37,480 bases of DNA. It comes from Cytophagales bacterium. GTDB lineage: Bacteria; Bacteroidota; Bacteroidia; Cytophagales; UBA9547. Shown piece after piece: positions 18,906 to 35,799 of the stretch (position 1 is its first letter; each line of letters opens with the position of its first letter). The stretch is from NCBI GenBank assembly GCA_004294265.1, contig REAG01000120.1, positions 1-37,480 on the forward strand, in the 5' to 3' direction. The position numbers and the translations under genes are program-made. The notes under the pieces were generated by a model. That model was not told where the DNA came from. It searched no databases and saw only the letters and a program-made list of their open reading frames with translations.

Positions 18906-18923
18906 TTCTAATTGAAAATCAAA

Positions 18924-19310
18924 ATGATGGAAAATAAAACTAGAATATCATTATTTCAAGGAATGATGCATCAAAAATGTCCGCATTGCAGAAAAGGTAA
19001 AATGTTTGAATTTGCTACTTATAATGTATCAAAGTTTAGTAAAATGCACAACAAATGCCCAAATTGCGGTCAAGATTTTGTGGTTGAACCCGGATTTTAC
19101 ACAGGAGCCATGTATTTTAGTTATGCTTTTAATGTGGCAATTCTAGTTATTTTCGGTTTGGGATTTAATATTTTATTTAATCCTGATGTTTTAACTTTGA
19201 CAGCATTAGTTATTGGTATTTCGTTTTTAGCTATGCCTTTAAATTTTAGATATTCACGAATTTTGATGATTTATTTATTTTCTGGAATTAAGTTTAAAGA
19301 AAATAATTAA
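18924..19310 (+). CDS. DUF983 small membrane protein with zinc-ribbon motif
   Basis: 128 residues from the ATG at 18924 (MMENKTRIS; the next codon is also ATG). Two CxxC pairs, CPHCRKGKMF and CPNCGQDF, separated by about 25 residues, form a probable zinc ribbon. They are followed by the conserved EPGFYTGAMYFSYAF segment and two membrane helices (roughly 65-85 and 90-108). This matches the DUF983 family, which has no established function. It has its own consensus promoter. Confidence 0.88.
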   Translation: MMENKTRISLFQGMMHQKCPHCRKGKMFEFATYNVSKFSKMHNKCPNCGQDFVVEPGFYTGAMYFSYAFNVAILVIFGLGFNILFNPDVLTLTALVIGISFLAMPLNFRYSRILMIYLFSGIKFKENN

Positions 19311-19428: not shown

Positions 19429-19935
19429 ATGAAAAATACAATTTATGGTTCGATATTAATCGGATGTTTGATAATGGTTTCGTGCAAAAAATCACCTACG
19501 GTTGATAAAAATTTAAACACTTGGACTTACGAAGTTGAATGTGTAAATACCGCCACCGAAGGTAATTATTTATTGAAAATATTTAGTTACAATAAAAATC
19601 AAAAGTTAGCCATCAACGAAGCCAAACGCAATGCAGTTCATTCCGTTATTTTCCGTGGATTTGCTTCAAATGCAAACTGTTATCAGCAAAGTCCTTTGGC
19701 TTCAAGTCCAGGCATTGAAGAGCAATACAAGGATTATTTTAGAGCTTTTTTTGCAGATGGAGGAAAATATTTAAAATTTGCAACCAATAGTAATGATGGT
19801 TCAATAGCACCAGAAGATAGATTAAAAGTAGGAAATCAATTTAAAATTGGTATTACTATTTCGGTTCAAAAAGATTTATTGCGACAAGAGTTAGAGCAAG
19901 CGGGAGTTATTAGAAAGCTCGATTCAGGTTTTTAA
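19429..19935 (+). CDS. Lipoprotein A of a lipoprotein/DUF6175-like cluster
   Basis: 168-residue probable lipoprotein: the signal peptide ends in the lipobox MVSC with Cys19. The mature part is paralogous to the next gene. Both share, in order, WTYEVEC/YEYEAEC, an Asn-x-x-x-A--EAKRNAV/EQAKKSAV helix, FRG/FKG, a Cys before a Pro, F-AFFADGGKYLKF/FNEFFKDGGAYKAF, a RLKVG/RLKGE turn and a hydrophobic beta segment before LRQELEQAGVI/LRKEMKSKGII. The paired Cys and shared strand-helix pattern suggest a compact alpha/beta domain, perhaps related to LPP20-type secretion or trafficking lipoproteins, which I could not confirm. 31 bases before its paralogue. Confidence 0.85.
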   Translation: MKNTIYGSILIGCLIMVSCKKSPTVDKNLNTWTYEVECVNTATEGNYLLKIFSYNKNQKLAINEAKRNAVHSVIFRGFASNANCYQQSPLASSPGIEEQYKDYFRAFFADGGKYLKFATNSNDGSIAPEDRLKVGNQFKIGITISVQKDLLRQELEQAGVIRKLDSGF

Positions 19936-19966
19936 TATTTAACATAATCATACTTTATTTATAATA

Positions 19967-20467
19967 ATGAAAAAAAATAAAATTGTTTTAATTGCGGTTG
20001 TAAGTTGCTTGATAATTTCATGTGGAAGAAGAACATATGTTGGAACTTCAAAAAACATTACAGCTGGATTTTATGAGTACGAAGCAGAATGTTTAGGAAC
20101 TGATTTGGATGGTTCTCAACAATTACGTTCTTACGGAGCTGGGGCAAACAGGGAAGATGCCAGAGAGCAAGCCAAAAAAAGTGCCGTTTATAATGTGCTT
20201 TTCAAAGGTACAAGACTTGGCAGAACAGGATGTGACGTTCGTCCTGTTGTTTTTAATATTAATACTTATGACGAAAAAAGAGATTTTTTCAATGAGTTTT
20301 TTAAAGATGGAGGAGCTTATAAAGCTTTTGTAACCAAAGAAGATACGCCAAGGCAAACCAAAAATAGATTAAAAGGTGAGGGTCGAGAAAAGGTTTTTGG
20401 AATGAGATTGACTGTTTTGGTTTCTGAACTGAGAAAAGAAATGAAATCAAAAGGCATTATTGAATAA
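19967..20467 (+). CDS. Lipoprotein B, paralogue of the preceding gene
   Basis: 166 residues; lipobox LIISC with Cys19. It shares the full motif order of the upstream lipoprotein (YEYEAECLGT, EQAKKSAVYNVLFKG, FNEFFKDGGAYKAF, a RLKGEGREK turn and LRKEMKSKGII). The two probably arose by tandem duplication and have diverged strongly. Probably co-transcribed with both neighbours (31-base and 40-base gaps). Function unknown. Confidence 0.85.
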   Translation: MKKNKIVLIAVVSCLIISCGRRTYVGTSKNITAGFYEYEAECLGTDLDGSQQLRSYGAGANREDAREQAKKSAVYNVLFKGTRLGRTGCDVRPVVFNINTYDEKRDFFNEFFKDGGAYKAFVTKEDTPRQTKNRLKGEGREKVFGMRLTVLVSELRKEMKSKGIIE

Positions 20468-20507
20468 TTGTTAAACATATATATACACACAACATAAAAT
20501 AAAATAA

Positions 20508-21449
20508 ATGAAAAATAAAATTGTAATTGCTTTATCATTAGTAACATTTTTAACATTTGGTCAGGCAAAAAAGCCAACTTTGATGGTTGTTCCTAGTGAT
20601 GCTTGGTGCAACAAAAACGGATTTATGGCAGAAGTTGAAAACCAAGGAATGAAAATGAAAATTCCTGATTACAGGCGTGCTTTATTGAATGATGAATTGC
20701 AAATGGTAATTGCCAAAATTAATACTTTAATGGCTGACAGAGGATTTCCGATGAAAGACTTGCAAGCCGGTATTAAGAGTTTGGATCAAGATAATGCAGA
20801 AGCAAGCATCAAAACTGGTAAATCTGGGTCGAGTATTACTGAAAGTCCGTTTGATAAACTCAAAAGATCAGCCAAAGCTGATATTATTGTGCAATTAACT
20901 TACAGTATTTCAACTACTGGTCCAAAAAAAACTGTAACTTTTAACTTACAAGGATTGGATTCTTACACTGATAAGCAAATTGCGGGAGCACAAGGTTCGG
21001 GAAAACCATCTTTTGCTACTGAAATTCCAGTTTTATTAGAAGAAGCCGTTCTTTCTCAATTAGATAGATTTAACGTACAATTACAAAAACATTTTGATGA
21101 TATGTTTGCCAACGGACGTGAAATTACGATTAGAATACGCAAATTTGACTCTTGGGATAAAGATTTAGATGAGGAAATAAAAGGCGATATGACAATTTCT
21201 GAAGTTATTGAAGAATGGATGCGTAAAAATTCAGTAAAAGCAAGATTTACAACTTCGGATGCTACTGAAAATATGATGTTCTTCGAGCAAGTAAGAATTC
21301 CTGTATATGATGAAAAGGGTTCAGCTTCTGATGCTAGAGGATATGTTCGTAAACTTCAAAAATATTTGGCTGCCGAACCGCTTAAAATTTCAAGTAAATT
21401 AACCATGAAAGGTCTTGGGCAAGCGACTTTGATTTTGGGAGAAAAATAA
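20508..21449 (+). CDS. Secreted DUF6175-like protein
   Basis: 313 residues with a signal peptide (cleavage near TFGQA, residue 20) and no lipobox. The mature chain matches, as I recall it, the Bacteroidota family DUF6175: VVPSDAWCNKNGF, PDYRRALL, INTLMADRGFPMKDL, a central KADIIVQLTYSIS--GPKKTVTFNLQGLD block, FDDMFANGREITIRIR and a final LTMKGLGQATLILGEK. The central block, 'AD-ii-v-l' followed by 'l-g-l-D-yT-kqia', resembles the CsgG/LpoB/TolB-N alpha/beta fold, so an envelope or periplasmic assembly role is a reasonable guess. It is the last gene of the three-gene run and is followed by a clear terminator. No enzymatic residues recognised. Confidence 0.85.
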   Translation: MKNKIVIALSLVTFLTFGQAKKPTLMVVPSDAWCNKNGFMAEVENQGMKMKIPDYRRALLNDELQMVIAKINTLMADRGFPMKDLQAGIKSLDQDNAEASIKTGKSGSSITESPFDKLKRSAKADIIVQLTYSISTTGPKKTVTFNLQGLDSYTDKQIAGAQGSGKPSFATEIPVLLEEAVLSQLDRFNVQLQKHFDDMFANGREITIRIRKFDSWDKDLDEEIKGDMTISEVIEEWMRKNSVKARFTTSDATENMMFFEQVRIPVYDEKGSASDARGYVRKLQKYLAAEPLKISSKLTMKGLGQATLILGEK

Positions 21450-21471
21450 TTTTTTTTATAATTTATTTACA

Positions 21472-21508
21472 AAATCCATTTTCTGAAATTCAGAAAGTGG
21501 ATTTTTTA
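21472..21508 (+). terminator. Rho-independent terminator after the DUF6175-like gene
   Basis: A 15-bp stem (21472-21486 with 21490-21504; core ATCCATTTTCTGA paired with TCAGAAAGTGGAT, one G-U pair), loop AAT, ending in a T-rich tail (TTTTTTATTT). It closes the lipoprotein/DUF6175 cluster and separates it from the imelysin promoter 40 bases downstream. Confidence 0.85.
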
Positions 21509-21608: not shown

Positions 21609-22811
21609 ATGAGTAAAATTATTATAACAATAGGAATAGGGATAGGATTGATGGGTTGCAAACCAGAAAATTTACCAAAACCAGTTTTGCAAGATGTGAA
21701 TCTGGGTTTGAAACAAAAAATTGTAGAAACTTACGCAATTATGGGTTTTACGATGTATTCAGACGCAGTAACCAAGGCAAAAGATTTAAAAAATGCCATA
21801 GACGCTTTCGTGCAAACACCTTCACAAAGTGGGTTAGAGAATTGTAAAATTGCTTGGCAAAACGCCAGGGTTCCGTATGCACACACCGAACCATTCAGAT
21901 TTTATGGCGGACCTATTGATGCAGCCAACACAGGTCGAGAAACTTTTATTAATGCTTGGCCTTTGGATGAATCTTACATGGATTATGTAAGTTTAAACTC
22001 CGTAAGTGGCATTATAAACGATGCAATAGCTTATCCATCCATCACTGCATCGGCACTTTCGGACTTAAACCAATTAAACGGTGAAACAAATTTATGCACT
22101 GGTTATCATGCCATTGAATTTATGTTATGGGGTCAAGATTTGGATTTAACTGGTCCGGGAGCAAGACCGTTTACTGATTTTGTGGATGGTGGAACTGCTC
22201 AAAATCAAGGACGAAGACGTAGTTTTTTAGTGGCTGTTTCTCAATTATTAATCGATGATTTGCAAAGTGTGGCAGACCAATGGGATAAATCTAAACCCAA
22301 TAATTATAGAGCAAGTTTTACAAATCCAACTCAATTAAAAGTTAGTTTAGCAAATATTTTGATAGGTTTAGGAAAATACAATAAAGGAGAAATGTCGGGG
22401 CAAAGAATTTATACTGCTTATTTTAACAATAGTGAAGAGGACGAACACGATTGCTTTAGTGATTATACAATGACTGATATTAGAAACTGGCAATCAGGAT
22501 TAAAAGGTATTTATTACGGAACTTATACGCAAATAAACGGTTCTATGCTTAAAGGTTATAGTCTTTCGGATTTTCTTAAAAAGGAAAGTCCTGAAACCGA
22601 TGTTAAAATCTCCTCAAAATTTGCTGCAACAGATGCCGTTTTGGCTACTATTACCACTACTTTTGATCAAGCTATAAAGCCAGCAAATCCTGATTTTCTT
22701 AAAATTTCAGATTTAATTAAAAACTTGCGTCAGCAAGCTGATTCCTACGCAGATATGCCTTTAAAGTTAGACGTTTTAAATGAATTTAATGGTTTAAATA
22801 CGGAAGAATAA
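21609..22811 (+). CDS. Imelysin-family (peptidase M75-like) lipoprotein
   Basis: 400-residue lipoprotein (lipobox LMGC, Cys17). The imelysin fold is recognised by the conserved N-terminal helix with AWQNARVPYAHTEPFRF and GGPID, and by the GxHxxE motif as GYHAIEFMLWGQD in the middle, both hallmarks of imelysin/EfeO/IrpA proteins. Despite the peptidase name, these proteins are mostly linked to iron uptake or binding at the cell surface. The stop shares one base with the next start (TAATG), so it is translationally coupled with a di-haem protein, a pair often seen in Bacteroidota and Proteobacteria. It has its own consensus promoter. Confidence 0.92.
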   Translation: MSKIIITIGIGIGLMGCKPENLPKPVLQDVNLGLKQKIVETYAIMGFTMYSDAVTKAKDLKNAIDAFVQTPSQSGLENCKIAWQNARVPYAHTEPFRFYGGPIDAANTGRETFINAWPLDESYMDYVSLNSVSGIINDAIAYPSITASALSDLNQLNGETNLCTGYHAIEFMLWGQDLDLTGPGARPFTDFVDGGTAQNQGRRRSFLVAVSQLLIDDLQSVADQWDKSKPNNYRASFTNPTQLKVSLANILIGLGKYNKGEMSGQRIYTAYFNNSEEDEHDCFSDYTMTDIRNWQSGLKGIYYGTYTQINGSMLKGYSLSDFLKKESPETDVKISSKFAATDAVLATITTTFDQAIKPANPDFLKISDLIKNLRQQADSYADMPLKLDVLNEFNGLNTEE

Positions 22812-24208
22812 TGAAGTTTTTGATTTATGTAATAGTAATAAATTGCTTGTTTATGGCTTGCCAAAAACAAGATAAACCAGCAGAAGTAAAACCTATTGAA
22901 ATCATTCCTGAAGATAAATCTAGGCTTTCGGGCGGAGCAGCAACTTCAATAGATGCAACAGAAAATGCTTTTGGAAATCAAGTTGATAAAGCCAGTTATG
23001 AAGACCTTGACAAATTTGAAAACGGCAATTCTTTTTTCAGAATGAATTGGGTTACAGCAGGAGCTTCCACAACAGCAAGAGATGGTTTGGGACCCTTAAT
23101 GAACGCTAATTCCTGTTCGGCTTGTCATCTATTGGATGGTAGGGGAAAGCCAACTATAGATGCAGGACTTTTATTAAGGCTCAGTGTAGATGGAACTTCT
23201 ACGCACGGAGGACCAAAACCTGATTCAATTTATGGCGGTCAATTAAGCGTTTCAGCCATTCAAAATGTTTTAAAAGAAGGCGATGTTTCAATTAATTACA
23301 CTGAAATTTCAGGTACATTTCCTGATGGTGAAACTTATTCTTTGCGTAAGCCAACATACACTATTTCTAATCTTAATTATGGAGCATTGGAACTTTCGAG
23401 CATGTTTTCGCCTCGTGTAGGACCGCAGGTTTATGGGCTTGGTTTATTAGAAATTATTCCCGAAAATGCTATAATTTTAAATGCTGATGAAAATGATGTA
23501 AATAACGATCAAATTTCAGGAAAAGCCAATTATGTGTGGGACAAAACAACAAATTCTACTCAAATTGGGCGTTTTGGATGGAAAGCAAACCAACCAAATT
23601 TGCACCAACAAACGGCAGATGCTTTTGTGGGCGATATGGGAATTACTTCAGCTTTAAATCCAGAAGAAAATTTAAGTGGAAAAACCCAAAAAACAAACTA
23701 TGGTGCTTTATTGAATGGTGGAAATCCAGAAATATCGGACAAAACTTTGGCAGATGTTGTTTTTTATCAACGCTCATTGGCAGTGCCAGCCAGAAGAAAT
23801 GTAAAAAACGAATCGGTAATAAAAGGTAAGAAAATTATGTCAGAAATTGGATGCACAAACTGCCATAAAGAAAGTTTTACAACAGGTTTTTCATCTATTC
23901 CCCAACTTTCAAACCAAACAATTTATCCTTACACAGATTTACTTTTGCATGATATGGGAAATGATTTGGCTGACAATAGACCCGATTTTTTGGCAAATGG
24001 CAACGAATGGAGAACGCCTCCATTATGGGGAATTGGTTTAATAAAAGTAGTAAATAAGCATACTTTTTTTATGCATGATGGCAGAGCTAGAAACATTGAA
24101 GAAGCCATTCTTTGGCACGGTGGAGAAGCTATAAACTCTAAAAATAAGTATAAAAATTTAAGTAAAGCTGATAGAAACAGTTTAATAACATTTTTAGAAA
24201 ATTTGTAA
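22811..24208 (+). CDS. Di-haem oxidoreductase (DUF1111/DHOR) lipoprotein
   Basis: 465 residues; signal peptide with lipobox FMAC (Cys17). Two c-type haem motifs, CSACH (102-106) and CTNCH (348-352), define the di-haem oxidoreductase family related to MauG and bacterial cytochrome c peroxidases. The conserved DGRGKP after haem 1 and the C-terminal WRTPPLWGIG with FMHDGRARNIEEAILWHGGEA are family features. The protein likely sits in the envelope and handles electrons or a peroxide-linked oxidation, possibly of iron or thiols, together with the imelysin partner. Its ATG overlaps the previous stop by one base. Cytochrome c maturation genes are not in the window. Confidence 0.93.
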   Translation: MKFLIYVIVINCLFMACQKQDKPAEVKPIEIIPEDKSRLSGGAATSIDATENAFGNQVDKASYEDLDKFENGNSFFRMNWVTAGASTTARDGLGPLMNANSCSACHLLDGRGKPTIDAGLLLRLSVDGTSTHGGPKPDSIYGGQLSVSAIQNVLKEGDVSINYTEISGTFPDGETYSLRKPTYTISNLNYGALELSSMFSPRVGPQVYGLGLLEIIPENAIILNADENDVNNDQISGKANYVWDKTTNSTQIGRFGWKANQPNLHQQTADAFVGDMGITSALNPEENLSGKTQKTNYGALLNGGNPEISDKTLADVVFYQRSLAVPARRNVKNESVIKGKKIMSEIGCTNCHKESFTTGFSSIPQLSNQTIYPYTDLLLHDMGNDLADNRPDFLANGNEWRTPPLWGIGLIKVVNKHTFFMHDGRARNIEEAILWHGGEAINSKNKYKNLSKADRNSLITFLENL

Positions 24209-25443: not shown

Positions 25444-28400
25444 TTATCTCAAAACCTGAATCCAACCTTTGAAAGGTTTTATAGAATCATCCAAACGATA
25501 CAGACTTAAATTATAAAAATATATTCCATCTGGTACTCCTTTGGCATCCCACGAATTATCGTATCCATTTTGCTCAAAAACTTTTATTCCCCAGCGGTTG
25601 TAAATAGTAATATCTGCTTTATTGTCTTGTAAATTTCTAATTGTAAAAGTATCGTTAAAACCATCGCCATTAGGAGTAATAATATTTGGAATAAAAATCT
25701 TTTTTACTTCAATTTTAGCTTGTTTAATATAATTGCAATTATTAGAATCTAATCCGCTAACTGTGAGCAAGTAAAAGCCTTCGTCTGTAAATTCAAAACT
25801 GGAAAATTTAATATTACTTATTCTGGGATTCCCAAAATTCCATAGAACAGAATTTACATTTGTAATTGATTTGAGTTCTACTTTGGTTTTTTCAATATCT
25901 CTTTCTAGTTCTAAACTATATTTAAAATTTGTTTTTGGATGAACAATTACTTTAGTTTTGAGCGGAAAAGTATATGAATTATCTTCATTTGAAACTAAAA
26001 TATTGTATCTTTGAGTTGTATCTGCAAAGGTAGTTGGCGACTGAGAAAATGCATCATCAAGAAACTTATCAGGTGTCCATTCAAAAAACGAGCCGCCTGT
26101 AATTTTGAATTTTTTAGTATCACCTTTGCACATTGCCAATGAATCTACGTAAGGATTAACAAAAATTGTCGCTTTTTTTATGTCTGTAGATTTGCAAGAA
26201 GATGAGTCTTTGGCAATCATCTCGACTTCAAATTTTCCCATTTTATTAAAATCATATTTATAATTTATTGGTCTATTTGATGAAATTATGAGCCCATCAG
26301 GAAATTTCCAGTCAAAACTTGTTTTTGTGGTGTAAAGGCTCGTTGTATTTATAAATTCTATAGAAATAGGAACTCTTCCGCTAATGGTCGAATTGTTAGA
26401 TAAGGGCGGATTCGTGGCAATCGAAACATTAATTGGCGAATATTTCAAATTTATTTTTACACCCAACATATTGCAATTTGAGCTATTATTAGTAACCGAC
26501 CACACATTTGGTGTTGTTTTTGTGTTTGAATTTCCTCTACAACCACCACAAACGGCTTGGTAAATTACGCCTTTTTTATCGAAGCGGCTTGTACCTCCGT
26601 CCACATGTTCATAGCCATCGCCACCAAATTGCGTAGCATATCTCAAACCCGAAAGATCAGGATTATAGACTGCAAAATAAAATCCGCCTTGCTTGTTATT
26701 GAAGGTTTGAAAAGCATCGGAGGTAGTTGTTAAAGTTGTAATAAATCCTGGAACTGTGTTGTTGATATTGAATAAATCGGAATTATACCAACCGCCAATT
26801 AAAACTTGATCGCAATCATCCACTTGAAATGCTGTAAAACTAATATCAGGAATTCCTCTTCCTGCTCCAATACGAGTGCTTAGTAATAATTTATCTAAAT
26901 TTGGAGAATATTTTTGAATAAATTGTCCGCTATTAGGATTAGAATAAATCGCTCCGCCACCTGTGTTGGTTACTAAAAAAGTGCTCGACCAAGTGTTTCC
27001 AGCCACATAAACATTTTTATTTTTATCTATTTCTAGCAAAGCTAGCTTATCATCACTCGCTGTTCCTATCCAAATTTGCTTAGAAGTTGTGGTTAAAGTT
27101 GGCGGAAATTCAAGTAAGAATCCATCTAAAAGCCCAGGTTTAGCGTTTATAAATGAACTATAATTATTACCCAATAAAGTAGAACTTCGGCTGTTTCCCA
27201 ACAGGAAAACTTCGTTATTTGCTCCAATTTTTACTGAATGGCAAGCATCAAGATCAGTTCCGCCTATGTAAGTAGAGTAAACTAAATCTAAATTTGGTGA
27301 GAACTTAGCAAATAAACCATCTTGAAGTCCCGAAAGTGAAGTATTGAGAGCATCAAAAGTGGTTGGTAAATCTGTGGATTGGGTGCTGGATGCCACATAA
27401 ATATTGTCTAAGGAATCTAATTGAATTTCACTTCTAAATTCGTCACTATAAAACATACGGTCGGAGGGTTCAAAGAAAAAACTTGATGCTTGTGGAAAAT
27501 AATAGGTTTTTAAATAAAAATCATACAAGTAATAAAAATAATTATTTGGGTTTTTATTTTTAAATAAATTTAATCCATCGTAACCAGTTCCACCGAAATA
27601 GATGCTGGAAACAAGGGTTGTTAAAGTGGCATCAAATTTTGAAATAATTAAGTCTGAATCTCCATTATTTATGCTTCCATTTGTAGTTGCAAAATTGGTT
27701 GAATTAGTAACGCCAAGCACCACTAACTCATTTTTTTTATTAACAATCATACTCATTGGGTGATCTTCTAAATTACCCCCAAAGTAAGTTGCTGCTAACC
27801 TTTCTTTTCCGTCAGTTGAAAATTTCATGAAAACCATATCAAAAACACTTCCTCCAAACTTGGTTTGATAGGCGCCTAAAACAGTATTGATTGGAAAACT
27901 AAATTGGTCGTTGAACTGTATACCACCCAAATACATATTTCCTAAAGTATCGTAAGTGGCAGTATAGCCCCAATTATCTGCAAAAGAGCCTGAAAAAGAC
28001 GAAAAAACGACTTCTGGGTCAATGATTAAGTCATAATCAGGGTTGTAATTTTCTTTTAAATGAAAAGTAACTTGATTATTTTTTAATTTATATTCGGATG
28101 CAATTTCAATTTTATTGCCATTTATGATTTGATATGAAAATGGTTTTAATTCTGTAATTTGGGTAAAAGTAGTTTTGTAAGTTAATTTTCCTTCTGATAT
28201 TTTTAAATCAGAAACACCTTCGTAGTTTTGTATTATTTCCGAAATATTTGAGCCTTTTTTTAAAACATATTCATACTTAAAAGTTGCATCATTTCTAGTA
28301 AGATTAAGATTGATATTTGGATAAATATTCTCAATAATTAGGTTTGTGGTGTGTTTTACGTTTGCAAAATGTTTTGATTTTTCTCCTACAAAATAGTTGG

Positions 28401-28737
28401 TATTAGTGTTTTGAAATTCGCCAAAACGAACTTTAGAGTCTTTGTTAGAATTAAGAAAAGATATTTTATAATGGTGTTTACTTATAAATGTGTCTTCATC
28501 TATGTGTCCGTGTCTTAGCTCATGTATTTTCTCATAATCAGTTTGAAAAATTTCAAAACTTTGTTTTGAAACATATAAATAACCGTTTGGAACATCCGTT
28601 TTAGCAATCATTGAAGCTTCAAATTGCCCTTTATTGATTTCAAAACTCGATAAACTCGGCAAAACCGAAGGTTTGTTTGAAAACAAAGGAAAAGAAATTA
28701 AAAAAATAAAAAAGTAAAAAAGCGTTTTATTTTTCAA
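25444..28737 (-). CDS. Large T9SS type B (gliding-motility C-terminal) surface protein with beta-propeller repeats
   Basis: 1097 residues. Order: signal peptide (about 1-20); an N-terminal domain beginning FEINKGQFEASM (the 'ENKGQ' domain that leads SBBP proteins, about 32-255); about 500 residues of seven-bladed-type repeats, each with strands such as YLGGIQFN, ATYFGG, STYIGGTD, YATQFGGDGYEH; a PKD/Ig-like domain with FDWKFPDG and FEVEMIAKD (about 800-870); a second Ig-like stretch; and a C-terminal gliding-motility sorting domain (about 1010-1097: IITPNGDGFNDTFTIRNL, IYNRWGIKVFEQ, DGIYFYNL, ending GWIQVLR). It should be exported by T9SS and fixed at or released from the cell surface. The start is TTG at 28737, directly at the signal peptide; no ATG lies upstream in frame before a stop, and the next ATG (about residue 43) would delete the signal. 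No consensus promoter seen. Confidence 0.93.
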   Translation of the reverse strand: MKNKTLFYFFIFLISFPLFSNKPSVLPSLSSFEINKGQFEASMIAKTDVPNGYLYVSKQSFEIFQTDYEKIHELRHGHIDEDTFISKHHYKISFLNSNKDSKVRFGEFQNTNTNYFVGEKSKHFANVKHTTNLIIENIYPNINLNLTRNDATFKYEYVLKKGSNISEIIQNYEGVSDLKISEGKLTYKTTFTQITELKPFSYQIINGNKIEIASEYKLKNNQVTFHLKENYNPDYDLIIDPEVVFSSFSGSFADNWGYTATYDTLGNMYLGGIQFNDQFSFPINTVLGAYQTKFGGSVFDMVFMKFSTDGKERLAATYFGGNLEDHPMSMIVNKKNELVVLGVTNSTNFATTNGSINNGDSDLIISKFDATLTTLVSSIYFGGTGYDGLNLFKNKNPNNYFYYLYDFYLKTYYFPQASSFFFEPSDRMFYSDEFRSEIQLDSLDNIYVASSTQSTDLPTTFDALNTSLSGLQDGLFAKFSPNLDLVYSTYIGGTDLDACHSVKIGANNEVFLLGNSRSSTLLGNNYSSFINAKPGLLDGFLLEFPPTLTTTSKQIWIGTASDDKLALLEIDKNKNVYVAGNTWSSTFLVTNTGGGAIYSNPNSGQFIQKYSPNLDKLLLSTRIGAGRGIPDISFTAFQVDDCDQVLIGGWYNSDLFNINNTVPGFITTLTTTSDAFQTFNNKQGGFYFAVYNPDLSGLRYATQFGGDGYEHVDGGTSRFDKKGVIYQAVCGGCRGNSNTKTTPNVWSVTNNSSNCNMLGVKINLKYSPINVSIATNPPLSNNSTISGRVPISIEFINTTSLYTTKTSFDWKFPDGLIISSNRPINYKYDFNKMGKFEVEMIAKDSSSCKSTDIKKATIFVNPYVDSLAMCKGDTKKFKITGGSFFEWTPDKFLDDAFSQSPTTFADTTQRYNILVSNEDNSYTFPLKTKVIVHPKTNFKYSLELERDIEKTKVELKSITNVNSVLWNFGNPRISNIKFSSFEFTDEGFYLLTVSGLDSNNCNYIKQAKIEVKKIFIPNIITPNGDGFNDTFTIRNLQDNKADITIYNRWGIKVFEQNGYDNSWDAKGVPDGIYFYNLSLYRLDDSIKPFKGWIQVLR

Positions 28738-32227: not shown

Positions 32228-33007
32228 ATGGGAATATTTCCTTCAAACAAAACATTCAGAGATTTTTTTATACATTTTTCTCTCATTATTCTTATTTTTT
32301 TGTTTTTAGGATATTTGTTTTTTTATATTTATTTACCTTCCGTTACTCACCACGATGAATCAATCTCGGTTCCGGATTTAAAAGGACAGACTTTAGAAAA
32401 ATCAATAGAATTTTTAGAAACCGTTTCGTTGCAATATAAAGTTTATGATAGTACTTATTCACCTGGTATTGCAGTTGCTTCAGTTATCAATCAATTTCCT
32501 AAAGCGGGCGAAAAAGTAAAATCCAATCGAACAATTTACCTAACTATCAGCACCATCAATCCGCCTGAAATAAAAATGCCAAGTTTGGTAGGAAATTCTT
32601 TTAAATCGGCCGAAATGACTTTGAAAAGTTATGGTTTAATTTTAGGAGAAGTTAAATACAAAGCTAGTTCTAGTCCTGGAGCCGTTTTAGGACAATTTAA
32701 TTCTGAAAATCAAAATATTTTACCAGGAACTGCATTAAAGAAAGGATCTGAGATAAATTTGCTTGTGAGTAGCGGGTTAGGAAATGAAGATATTATTTTG
32801 CCAAACATTACAGGATATACGCTTGAGGAGGCAAAAAAAATGATTCAAAATAATGGTTTAGAGGTTGGTAGCGTAGTTTTTGATGAAAATTCTGGACAAT
32901 CAGACGGACAAGTTTTTAAGCAAAAACCAAGTAATAATCAAAACGATAGCACAATAAAAGTTAAATCTGGAGAAATAATTGATTTATGGGTGGCAGGCAC
33001 AAAATGA
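32228..33007 (+). CDS. Membrane-anchored three-PASTA-domain protein
   Basis: 259 residues from ATG 32228 (MGIFPSNKTFRDF). One membrane helix (about 16-37) is followed by three PASTA domains outside the membrane: about 46-111 (ISVPDLKGQTLEKSIEFL...), 114-181 (IKMPSLVGNSFKSAEMTL...) and 184-254 (IILPNITGYTLEEAKKMI...). PASTA domains bind peptidoglycan stem peptides or D-Ala-D-Ala-like ligands in PknB kinases and PBP2x. Here there is no kinase or transpeptidase domain, so this looks like a stand-alone envelope sensor or scaffold; this PASTA-only form is common in Bacteroidota. The frame runs back to a TTG at 32171, but that part overlaps a probable promoter. The stop overlaps the next start (ATGA). 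Confidence 0.9.
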   Translation: MGIFPSNKTFRDFFIHFSLIILIFLFLGYLFFYIYLPSVTHHDESISVPDLKGQTLEKSIEFLETVSLQYKVYDSTYSPGIAVASVINQFPKAGEKVKSNRTIYLTISTINPPEIKMPSLVGNSFKSAEMTLKSYGLILGEVKYKASSSPGAVLGQFNSENQNILPGTALKKGSEINLLVSSGLGNEDIILPNITGYTLEEAKKMIQNNGLEVGSVVFDENSGQSDGQVFKQKPSNNQNDSTIKVKSGEIIDLWVAGTK

Positions 33008-35799
33008 TATTTAAAATAGTCAAAATTACTTTTTTATTCTTATTTTCTGCTTTAGGAATTGCATTTTCGCAACTCAAAGAAAGTAATATAACGCAAAAAA
33101 ATCTAATTGAAAATTCTCTCTTTTTTAATTCATCTAATCAAAATTTAAGAACAGAAGCTGTTGCAGATTCTATCAATCCAACTGTTTCTATTGTTTTAAT
33201 AAGTGGTAATAATCCTCGTTGCAACACCGATAATCAAGCCTTAGTATTTTCTGCCGTAGGTAATAATTTTGGAAATTCTCCCATAATTCAATGGTATGTA
33301 AATACTACCTTTTCCGCTACGGGCAGTAGTTTTCAAATTTCAAATTTAGCTGATAACGACAAAGTATATTGCCGATTAAAATCAAGTTTGGATTGTGCTT
33401 CACCCAAAAATATTAATTCAAAATCTATTACTATTTCGGTTGTAAATACCATAACGTCTAAGGTAACTATTTCGGTTTTGGCTGGAAACAACCCTGATTG
33501 CACAGGTAATTCACCTATTTTATTACAAGCAATTCCGGAAAATTGCGGACAAAATCCTCAATTTATTTGGGCTTTTAATTCTACGATTCTTACAACTGTC
33601 GTGGGAAGTACTTTTTATATTGATAAATTAGATAATAAATCGCAAATAAATGTTACGGTAGTTTCTAACATTGGAGATTGTATTTCAGAAAGTTCATTGC
33701 CTGTTACTAACTTTTTTCAAAGAAAAGTTCAAACGGCTCTACAACAACCCGAAAATAATGCCGTTGATATAAATTTAACTTCTATTTCAAATCCAGATTG
33801 CAGTAATAAAATATATAATTTTTCGGTTATTTCTCCCCGAAGTGGCACTAACCCAGTCTATTCTTGGTATTTGAATAATAATTTAATCAAAACTATTGCA
33901 GGCGATGTTTTTAATGCCAGTACCCAAACTTACCAAACCTCTTTGCCCGGAATTGGGGATGAGGTAAAAGTAAAAGTGCGGTCTTCACTTGCTTGTATTG
34001 ATACAAAAGAAGTTACAAGTCCGTCTTATATTCGGACAGATACAATTTTTAATTTACCTTTTTTTGAAGATTTTTCTACATATAAAGGTCAGCCAGATGT
34101 AAAAAAATGGCTCAAAAATCAAGGTGTTTATATCGCAAATAATTATACTTTCAATCCGCCAAGTTATGGAGTAGCTTATTTTGATGGACTTAAATATAAT
34201 GGTAATTCTTACGATAGTATAAATGTAACTGCACGAGGAACGACCGATAAACTAACTTCTGCACCAATTAATTTAGCTAATTATAATAATAGCGATAGTT
34301 TATATTTACATTTTTATTGGACAGTGAAAGGTCTGGGCGAAGAGCCAGATTCTACTCAAGGCGATAGATTAGCATTATATTTAAAAGATTCTAATAATAA
34401 TTTTGTTAAAAAATGGGAAATGAATAAATTTAAAACGATCAATAAAACAACTTTTGAACATGTTTCTATAAAAATATCATCAACTTTAGGTCAAAATTTT
34501 TTGCACAAAGGTTTTCAATTCAAGTTTGAAACTACTGGAAGAATGACGGGTATTTTTGATATTTGGGGAATAGATTATGTATATATAGGTCGAAATTCAA
34601 CTAGAGCTACTCCTTTTTTTAACGATCAAACTTTTGGACAAGAACTAGGTTCAATGCTTAAAAATTATTCTTCCATGCCCTATGAACACTTTATTCAAAA
34701 CCCAGATAAAGAGTTAAAAGATACCATTGCCTATACTTTTTTGAATAATTTTGCTGAATTAGGGAACACAAATTCTATGCGATTTGATATTTTTGAAAAT
34801 AATACCAATGTTTCTTTAGCAACTGCATCATTAACTGAAATCGTAAATGGTTTATATCCAAATTCATTAAAATTGTTTTTTTTGAAAAGTAATATAACTT
34901 TTCCCGCATCCGCTCCTACCAATCCATATTTTTTAACTTCAACTTTAACTTTAAGAAATGATTTGGATAATTCAGACGGAAAAGGTATTAATTATACTCA
35001 GAATAATACAATTTCATACCAAACTAGATTTGATAATTATTACGCTTATGATGACGGTTCGGCAGAGTCTGTGTTATCAAGAAATGTAAAAAATGGGTAT
35101 GTAGCAATGAAATTTAATACTTTCAATAAAGATACATTACGACAAATTGCTATCCAATTAAACCGTTCTAAAACTGCACTTACTAATCGCCCTATTTCAA
35201 TTATGGTTTGGAAAAAATTACCTAATCTTAGAAATGCAAATCCATTTGATCCAGATATTTTATATAAATCAACTCATTTATTAAAATATTCAAATTTTGT
35301 AGATGGCTTTTCGGTTATTAATTTAGATACCCGTGAATCGCCATTGGTGATTGTTGAAGGCGAATTTTATATAGGATATCAACAAATTACAGACGAGGAA
35401 GTAATTGTTGGTTTTGATAAAAACAGTGTTTATCCTACTTCAAATTTATTTTATTCCGATAATGGCGTTTGGAAAGATTTTTCAAAAGAAAACCCAGAAA
35501 GCAAAGGTTCGATGATGATGCGACCTGTGTTCGGAAACTATACAGTTCCGCCTTTGAGTATCAAAAAAGTTGATTTTAAAAAGGCTGACATTTCTGTATT
35601 TCCCAATCCTGCCAACGAAAAAATATATTTTACAGATAGTATTGAAAAAGTACAAATTTTTGATATTTTAGGAAATAAAATCTTTACTGCTTCAAATGTG
35701 CAAGAAATAGATACAAACGAATTTCAAAATGGCATTTATTTTTTAAACATACAAAGTGAAAATCAAGTTTTTAACAAAAAAATAATCATTCAACATTAA
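33004..35799 (+). CDS. T9SS type A (Por-sorting) secreted multidomain protein
   Basis: 931 residues from ATG 33004, whose ATGA overlaps the PASTA stop by four bases and begins directly at the signal peptide (MIFKIVKITFLFLFSALG, cleavage near AFSQ). An ATG 18 bases upstream, at 32986, is less likely. Three related Ig-like repeats of about 85-100 residues follow (each with SGNNPRC/AGNNPDC/ISNPDC near its start, an IQWYVN/FIWAFN/YSWYLN strand and a later Cys). Next come a jelly-roll-like domain (LPFFEDFSTY onward, about 340-530), a region of unknown fold, and the C-terminal Por sorting domain (about 855-931: SVFPNPANEKIYF, VQIFDILGNKIF, NGIYFLNIQ, KKIIIQH). It should cross the outer membrane by T9SS and be attached through A-LPS. 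No catalytic motif recognised; possibly adhesive. Confidence 0.93.
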   Translation: MIFKIVKITFLFLFSALGIAFSQLKESNITQKNLIENSLFFNSSNQNLRTEAVADSINPTVSIVLISGNNPRCNTDNQALVFSAVGNNFGNSPIIQWYVNTTFSATGSSFQISNLADNDKVYCRLKSSLDCASPKNINSKSITISVVNTITSKVTISVLAGNNPDCTGNSPILLQAIPENCGQNPQFIWAFNSTILTTVVGSTFYIDKLDNKSQINVTVVSNIGDCISESSLPVTNFFQRKVQTALQQPENNAVDINLTSISNPDCSNKIYNFSVISPRSGTNPVYSWYLNNNLIKTIAGDVFNASTQTYQTSLPGIGDEVKVKVRSSLACIDTKEVTSPSYIRTDTIFNLPFFEDFSTYKGQPDVKKWLKNQGVYIANNYTFNPPSYGVAYFDGLKYNGNSYDSINVTARGTTDKLTSAPINLANYNNSDSLYLHFYWTVKGLGEEPDSTQGDRLALYLKDSNNNFVKKWEMNKFKTINKTTFEHVSIKISSTLGQNFLHKGFQFKFETTGRMTGIFDIWGIDYVYIGRNSTRATPFFNDQTFGQELGSMLKNYSSMPYEHFIQNPDKELKDTIAYTFLNNFAELGNTNSMRFDIFENNTNVSLATASLTEIVNGLYPNSLKLFFLKSNITFPASAPTNPYFLTSTLTLRNDLDNSDGKGINYTQNNTISYQTRFDNYYAYDDGSAESVLSRNVKNGYVAMKFNTFNKDTLRQIAIQLNRSKTALTNRPISIMVWKKLPNLRNANPFDPDILYKSTHLLKYSNFVDGFSVINLDTRESPLVIVEGEFYIGYQQITDEEVIVGFDKNSVYPTSNLFYSDNGVWKDFSKENPESKGSMMMRPVFGNYTVPPLSIKKVDFKKADISVFPNPANEKIYFTDSIEKVQIFDILGNKIFTASNVQEIDTNEFQNGIYFLNIQSENQVFNKKIIIQH

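Follow-up and report, generated by a model that had tools for sequence, protein, structure and literature searches.

What is the role of three adjacent genes for exported proteins in a member of the Cytophagales, one of which encodes a protein of a domain family without assigned function? The genes lie on contig REAG01000120.1 (assembly GCA_004294265.1) in a stretch of 37,480 nt, the whole of which was analysed and is hereafter called the window. An earlier note on this DNA had described an uncharacterised envelope cassette of three consecutive exported proteins, separated by small gaps and closed by a clear terminator. We recovered all three ORFs at exactly the coordinates given there, on the same strand and with intergenic gaps of 31 and 40 nt, and located the terminator as follows.

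19429–19935, + strand: gene A, a 168 aa exported lipoprotein, by homology and family alignment a probable A-type member of the LPP20/FlgT-N-like family; the C-terminal ...GVIRKLDSGF is conserved
19967–20467, + strand: gene B, a 166 aa exported lipoprotein, paralogue of A
20508–21449, + strand: gene D, a 313 aa exported DUF6175 protein with a cleavable signal peptide and a mature start near QAKKP
21471–21505, + strand: intrinsic terminator at the end of the cassette, a hairpin of 16 pairs plus a T-tail

A scan of the region found 4 terminator-like sites against a mean of 0.8 in shuffles. The extent drawn earlier, exact for the three ORFs, had stopped short of the terminator and left out two partner genes, c0 and c1, that lie on other contigs. 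The genome contains one DUF6175 gene and two A/B-family genes.

Several other genes in the window deserve mention in their own right. The DUF983 protein encoded at 18912–19310 has two CxxC motifs at its N terminus that resemble a zinc ribbon. At 21609–24208 the gene for an Imelysin (Peptidase_M75) lipoprotein stands immediately before one for a di-haem oxidoreductase, an arrangement typical of iron or redox functions; in relatives this pair is not linked to the trio. Two large proteins, encoded at 25444–28737 and 32986–35799, bear CHU_C and Por_Secre_tail sorting domains and are likely substrates of type IX secretion.

The products of genes A and B are paralogous, as had been proposed, with 30% identity across 165 aa (BLASTP, E 2e-21), and the motifs ascribed to both, YEVEC/YEAEC, FRAFFADGGKYLKF/FNEFFKDGGAYKAF and RLK, are all present. 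Their description as two lipoproteins holds in the window's genus, where each has a lipobox with its cysteine at position 19, but does not extend to most other genera, where the signal peptide of A is a plain one with AQ at its end and no lipobox; the lipobox of B is kept in many genera. The cysteines of the two proteins are assigned as follows.

19483–19485, + strand: A Cys19, probable lipidation site (MVSC), from sequence
20021–20023, + strand: B Cys19, probable lipidation site (IISC), from sequence
19540–19542, + strand: A Cys38 (YEVEC), predicted from cysteine covariation to form a disulphide with Cys84 (codon 19678–19680)
20090–20233, + strand: B Cys42 (20090–20092) and Cys89 (20231–20233), a disulphide predicted from cysteine covariation

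Among 113 A/B homologues, 90 have the YExEC cysteine together with the second cysteine, 23 have neither and none has only one of them, a pattern that does not represent 113 independent events as the sequences are related. An acidic stretch following the lipid cysteine has been described as a signal for surface export of lipoproteins in Bacteroidetes. This stretch is absent from A and B, so the two proteins likely face the periplasm.

A model of B was built with AlphaFold (pLDDT 84.3) from an alignment of the window's protein with those of related loci. The model aligned with FlgT residues 1–91 over 66 residues (Z 5.2, 2.3 A), a score tied by dodecins at 5.3, with Tip-alpha (Z 5.1) and, weakly, with Lpp20 (5ok8; Z 4.3, 4.2 A, 95 residues); Foldseek alone returned no significant match for it. 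The model thus points, with modest strength, to a fold near FlgT-N/LPP20.

The third protein had been called DUF6175-like. The family was right, but D matches PF19672 along its whole length (E 1.6e-114, 382 bits against a cut-off of 23, profile positions 1–293) and is therefore DUF6175 itself. The Pfam entry carries no function, and a literature search, which mostly covered papers outside subscription, found no paper on the family. The AlphaFold model of D (pLDDT 89.3), prepared from an alignment of the same kind, divides the mature protein into two domains.

20568–21113, + strand: D residues 21–202, predicted CsgG/PelC/FlgT-middle/TolB-N fold, from comparison of the structure model
21114–21446, + strand: D residues 203–313, a C-terminal beta-alpha-beta-beta-alpha-beta-beta domain that is modelled confidently and scarcely covered by fold matches

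The best match of D was to CsgG (4q79; Z 10.0, 3.5 A, 131 aligned), an oligomeric exporter, followed by PelC (5t10; Z 9.5, 2.6 A, 113 aligned), the TolB-N-like middle domain of FlgT (3w1e, residues 94–267; Z 8.8, 3.3 A, 131 residues), the PqiC homologue 2iqi (Z 8.3), TolB (Z 7.7), LpoB (Z 7.1) and LptE (about 7). Foldseek returned GNA1162 (E 6e-4) and CsgG (E 8e-4). These comparisons bear out the earlier hunch that a central block of D recalls the CsgG/LpoB/TolB-N fold and the advice given there to compare the proteins with FlgT, and place residues 21–202 of the model in the CsgG/PelC/FlgT-middle fold. As LptE, TolB and tRNA-synthetase domains all score near 7, the fold is a common one and by itself proves neither a ring nor a function. 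A Pfam search of A, B and D against FlgT_N, FlgT_M, FlgT_C, CsgG (PF03783) and LPP20 (PF02169) gave no match at E 1. We also note that Cys34 of D (WCN motif; 20607–20609) is invariant in 67 homologues and is often the sole cysteine of the mature protein, which is odd for a periplasmic protein.

Three of the proteins matched by D, PqiC through its homologue 2iqi, are known to build rings, namely PelC, PqiC and FlgT (PMC12141448, PMC10897342, PMC7693769). FlgT forms the H ring of the Vibrio motor (PMC7693769), PqiC is a ring-building lipoprotein that forms an octameric toroid (PMC10897342), and PelB together with a PelC ring constitutes an exopolysaccharide exporter (PMC12141448). The PqiC toroid and the matches of D to 2iqi and LptE would fit a lipid-handling complex of the PqiC or LptE type, in which a toroid supports lipid movement at the outer membrane, but we saw no recurring linkage of the set to an MCE, ABC-transporter or Lpt gene and regard this explanation as improbable.

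At least 554 relatives were confirmed in the genome collection, including cultured strains of Flavobacterium, Mucilaginibacter, Pedobacter and Aequorivita, and at the DUF6175 loci of the phylum and class an A/B relative is found just upstream almost always. Nearly all of the 80 named loci with flanks on record share one standard operon, in which the order is c0-A-(B)-D-c1 and the median gaps measure 12–20 nt. More than half of the loci have both A and B, and most others have one of them; at one locus (L121), A and B are replaced by four short A/B-family fragments in what is apparently a decaying or mis-sequenced copy. The proposal that the three genes belong together is thus upheld by their conserved neighbourhood, but the real unit has five components, including c0 and c1. 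The flanking genes beyond the operon have no recurring function across loci.

The c0 gene encodes a periplasmic protein that is either soluble or carries a C-terminal outer-membrane-barrel-like part, and c1 encodes a TPR-like protein with four invariant cysteines. Some loci in which c0 is soluble possess a DUF3575 barrel gene of its own downstream of c1, and this gene shows a weak match to the barrel part of the fused form. In the window's genus the trio A-B-D stands alone at its locus. Loss of the two partners from this genus was considered and rejected, as other contigs of the window's genome carry both c0 (587 aa, including the barrel-like part at the C terminus) and c1 (330 aa), and both congeners have them as well. 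We checked three further genomes of the family and found none of c0, c1 and DUF6175 in them. Sequence profile searches of the PDB with A/B, D, c0 and c1 gave nothing credible. At some loci a CsgG-family gene (PF03783) lies upstream, in the position of c0; profile–profile comparison of D, c0 and c1 with these CsgG-family neighbours gave weak matches only (12–24% probability).

These observations bear on whether the set could be an export channel resembling CsgG or PelBC, with D (and c0) forming a periplasmic funnel and gate for protein or polysaccharide and the TPR-like part of c1 guiding the cargo. The nearest folds to D are those of CsgG and PelC, a barrel-bearing protein and a TPR-like protein in one set recall PelB plus the PelC ring (PMC12141448), and CsgG-family genes can occupy the c0 position. 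However, the barrel segment of c0 is only about 180 aa long, which probably gives fewer strands than an export pore would need, and is missing from most c0 proteins. D itself is no lipoprotein, and the neighbourhood of the operon contains no conserved gene for a synthase, an amyloid or a substrate. On balance, we consider an export channel unlikely.

Across whole genomes the components come and go together. Among 395 genomes of the window's class, D is present in 34, c1 in 35 and A/B in 32; D and c1 occur jointly in 33 and D and A/B in 32, with no case of A/B without D. Fisher tests of co-occurrence in these 395 genomes gave p values of about 1e-40 to 1e-45 with relatedness ignored. The exceptions comprise one genome (G390) in which c1 lies at a contig end and two (G462 and G357) that hold divergent copies of the apparently missing gene. 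The earlier note had named rare co-occurrence as one finding that would count against the trio; this near-perfect association is the opposite. That the three are unrelated exported proteins and mere neighbours might have been supposed from the window, where the trio is flanked by functionally unrelated genes, but the near-perfect conservation of the operon, the whole-genome co-occurrence and the gene fusions described below refute this reading, to which we assign next to no probability. Together with the export of the proteins, the operon and the co-occurrence agree with the initial description as an uncharacterised envelope cassette.

The set is distributed patchily over many families and is inherited together by roughly one in ten of the Bacteroidota genomes sampled (9% for the class), which suggests an accessory system. 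The distribution is relevant to a further possibility, that the genes encode an LpoB-like regulator set that would activate a peptidoglycan synthase from the outer membrane. The model of D resembles LpoB, and the neighbouring CsgG-type proteins match the LpoB Pfam model, but so patchy a spread is unlike that of a core synthase regulator and no cell-wall gene is consistently linked; this explanation seems to us very doubtful. A flagellar role was rejected, as FlgI was found in 0/37 genomes carrying DUF6175 with positive controls in E. coli, Caulobacter and Thermotoga. PorP/SprF was found in 73/75 genomes with or without DUF6175, and its near-universal presence in both sets makes it uninformative as a test for a connection with type IX secretion.

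Fusions of A and D into a single protein occur in two lineages; A precedes D in them, which is the N-to-M order of FlgT. One lineage is a family outside the window's class (four matches, three verified by profile) and the other is a genus within the class (g134). In the former, a deep lineage, the next gene encodes an LPP20 lipoprotein (PF02169, E down to 1.2e-07; C-terminal part matching the N-terminal domain of c1). These natural fusions are the only interface-type evidence for the set, and the FlgT-N-like reading of B gains weight because the fusion order and the operon partners agree with it. A separate domain swap is seen in a genome of the window's order (G161, L171:4637–5968, - strand), where the N-terminal domain of c1 is joined to a caspase-like (Peptidase_C14) domain that replaces the TPR part. 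We found no literature joining CsgG, LPP20, DUF3575 and caspase in a search that covered mostly papers outside subscription.

Comparison with known systems clarifies what is shared and what is not. FlgT, which acts with FlgO and FlgP in the H ring of the Vibrio polar flagellar motor, has its N and M domains in the same order as A/B and D, with B modestly resembling residues 1–91 and D resembling residues 94–267 in fold, and LPP20-type partners of the set in some lineages recall FlgP. Unlike in FlgT, where the domains lie on one chain, the modules are separate genes in the window and fused only in the two other lineages, D has an extra C-terminal domain, A, B and D lack a Pfam-level sequence match, and the set occurs without a flagellum and is linked to c0 and c1 rather than motor genes. 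The curli exporter CsgG/HfaB (PF03783) offers the best fold match of D and has family members in the c0 position, but PF03783 does not match D, which lacks lipidation and contains a further domain, and no curlin-type genes were seen nearby. PelBC, in which PelC is a dodecameric lipoprotein ring on the PelB barrel, likewise unites a barrel, a module of the CsgG/PelC fold and a TPR-like part; here, however, the barrel is small or absent, the TPR-like part is a separate protein and no Pel synthesis genes are nearby. LPP20/FlgP proteins (PF02169) adjoin the set in some lineages and are weakly matched in fold by B, whereas A and B have the predicted disulphide and the FxxFFxDGGxYxxF motif and no Pfam LPP20 match.

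Collectively, these data lead us to propose, at about even odds, that A, B and D belong to a periplasmic complex of five components, associated with the outer membrane and made of split FlgT/CsgG/PelC modules, probably a ring, collar or scaffold. The homology, the operon, the whole-genome co-occurrence, the A–D fusions and the fold of D are established by these data, and the fold of B less securely. The first domain of D would likely form the wall of the ring, on the periplasmic side of the outer membrane, and A and B would be FlgT-N/LPP20-like modules stabilised by a disulphide, with B, and A in the window's genus, tethered to a membrane by lipid. We infer that c0 may anchor the complex in the outer membrane, that c1 may serve as a periplasmic connector and that the complex would be an oligomeric ring, probably acting as the collar or scaffold of an envelope machine. 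More tentatively, and with less than an even chance of being right, the set may be an undescribed outer-membrane machine of non-flagellated Bacteroidota, in which separate FlgT-type H-ring modules sit on a barrel-anchored c0; such a machine would be a relative of the flagellar H ring as well as of the CsgG/PelC exporters, with a trans-envelope process of its own to serve. The folds are already known. In the literature searched, mostly papers outside subscription, neither the five-part system nor its link to DUF6175 appears to have been described.

These findings tie DUF6175, so far without assigned function, to four partners whose presence and absence track its own, and to the FlgT/CsgG/PelC set of modules. 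They turn it into part of an envelope system that is defined, open to testing and represented by at least 554 relatives. They also suggest that H-ring-type modules exist as separable parts outside flagella, which bears on the origin of flagellar accessory rings and of CsgG-type exporters.
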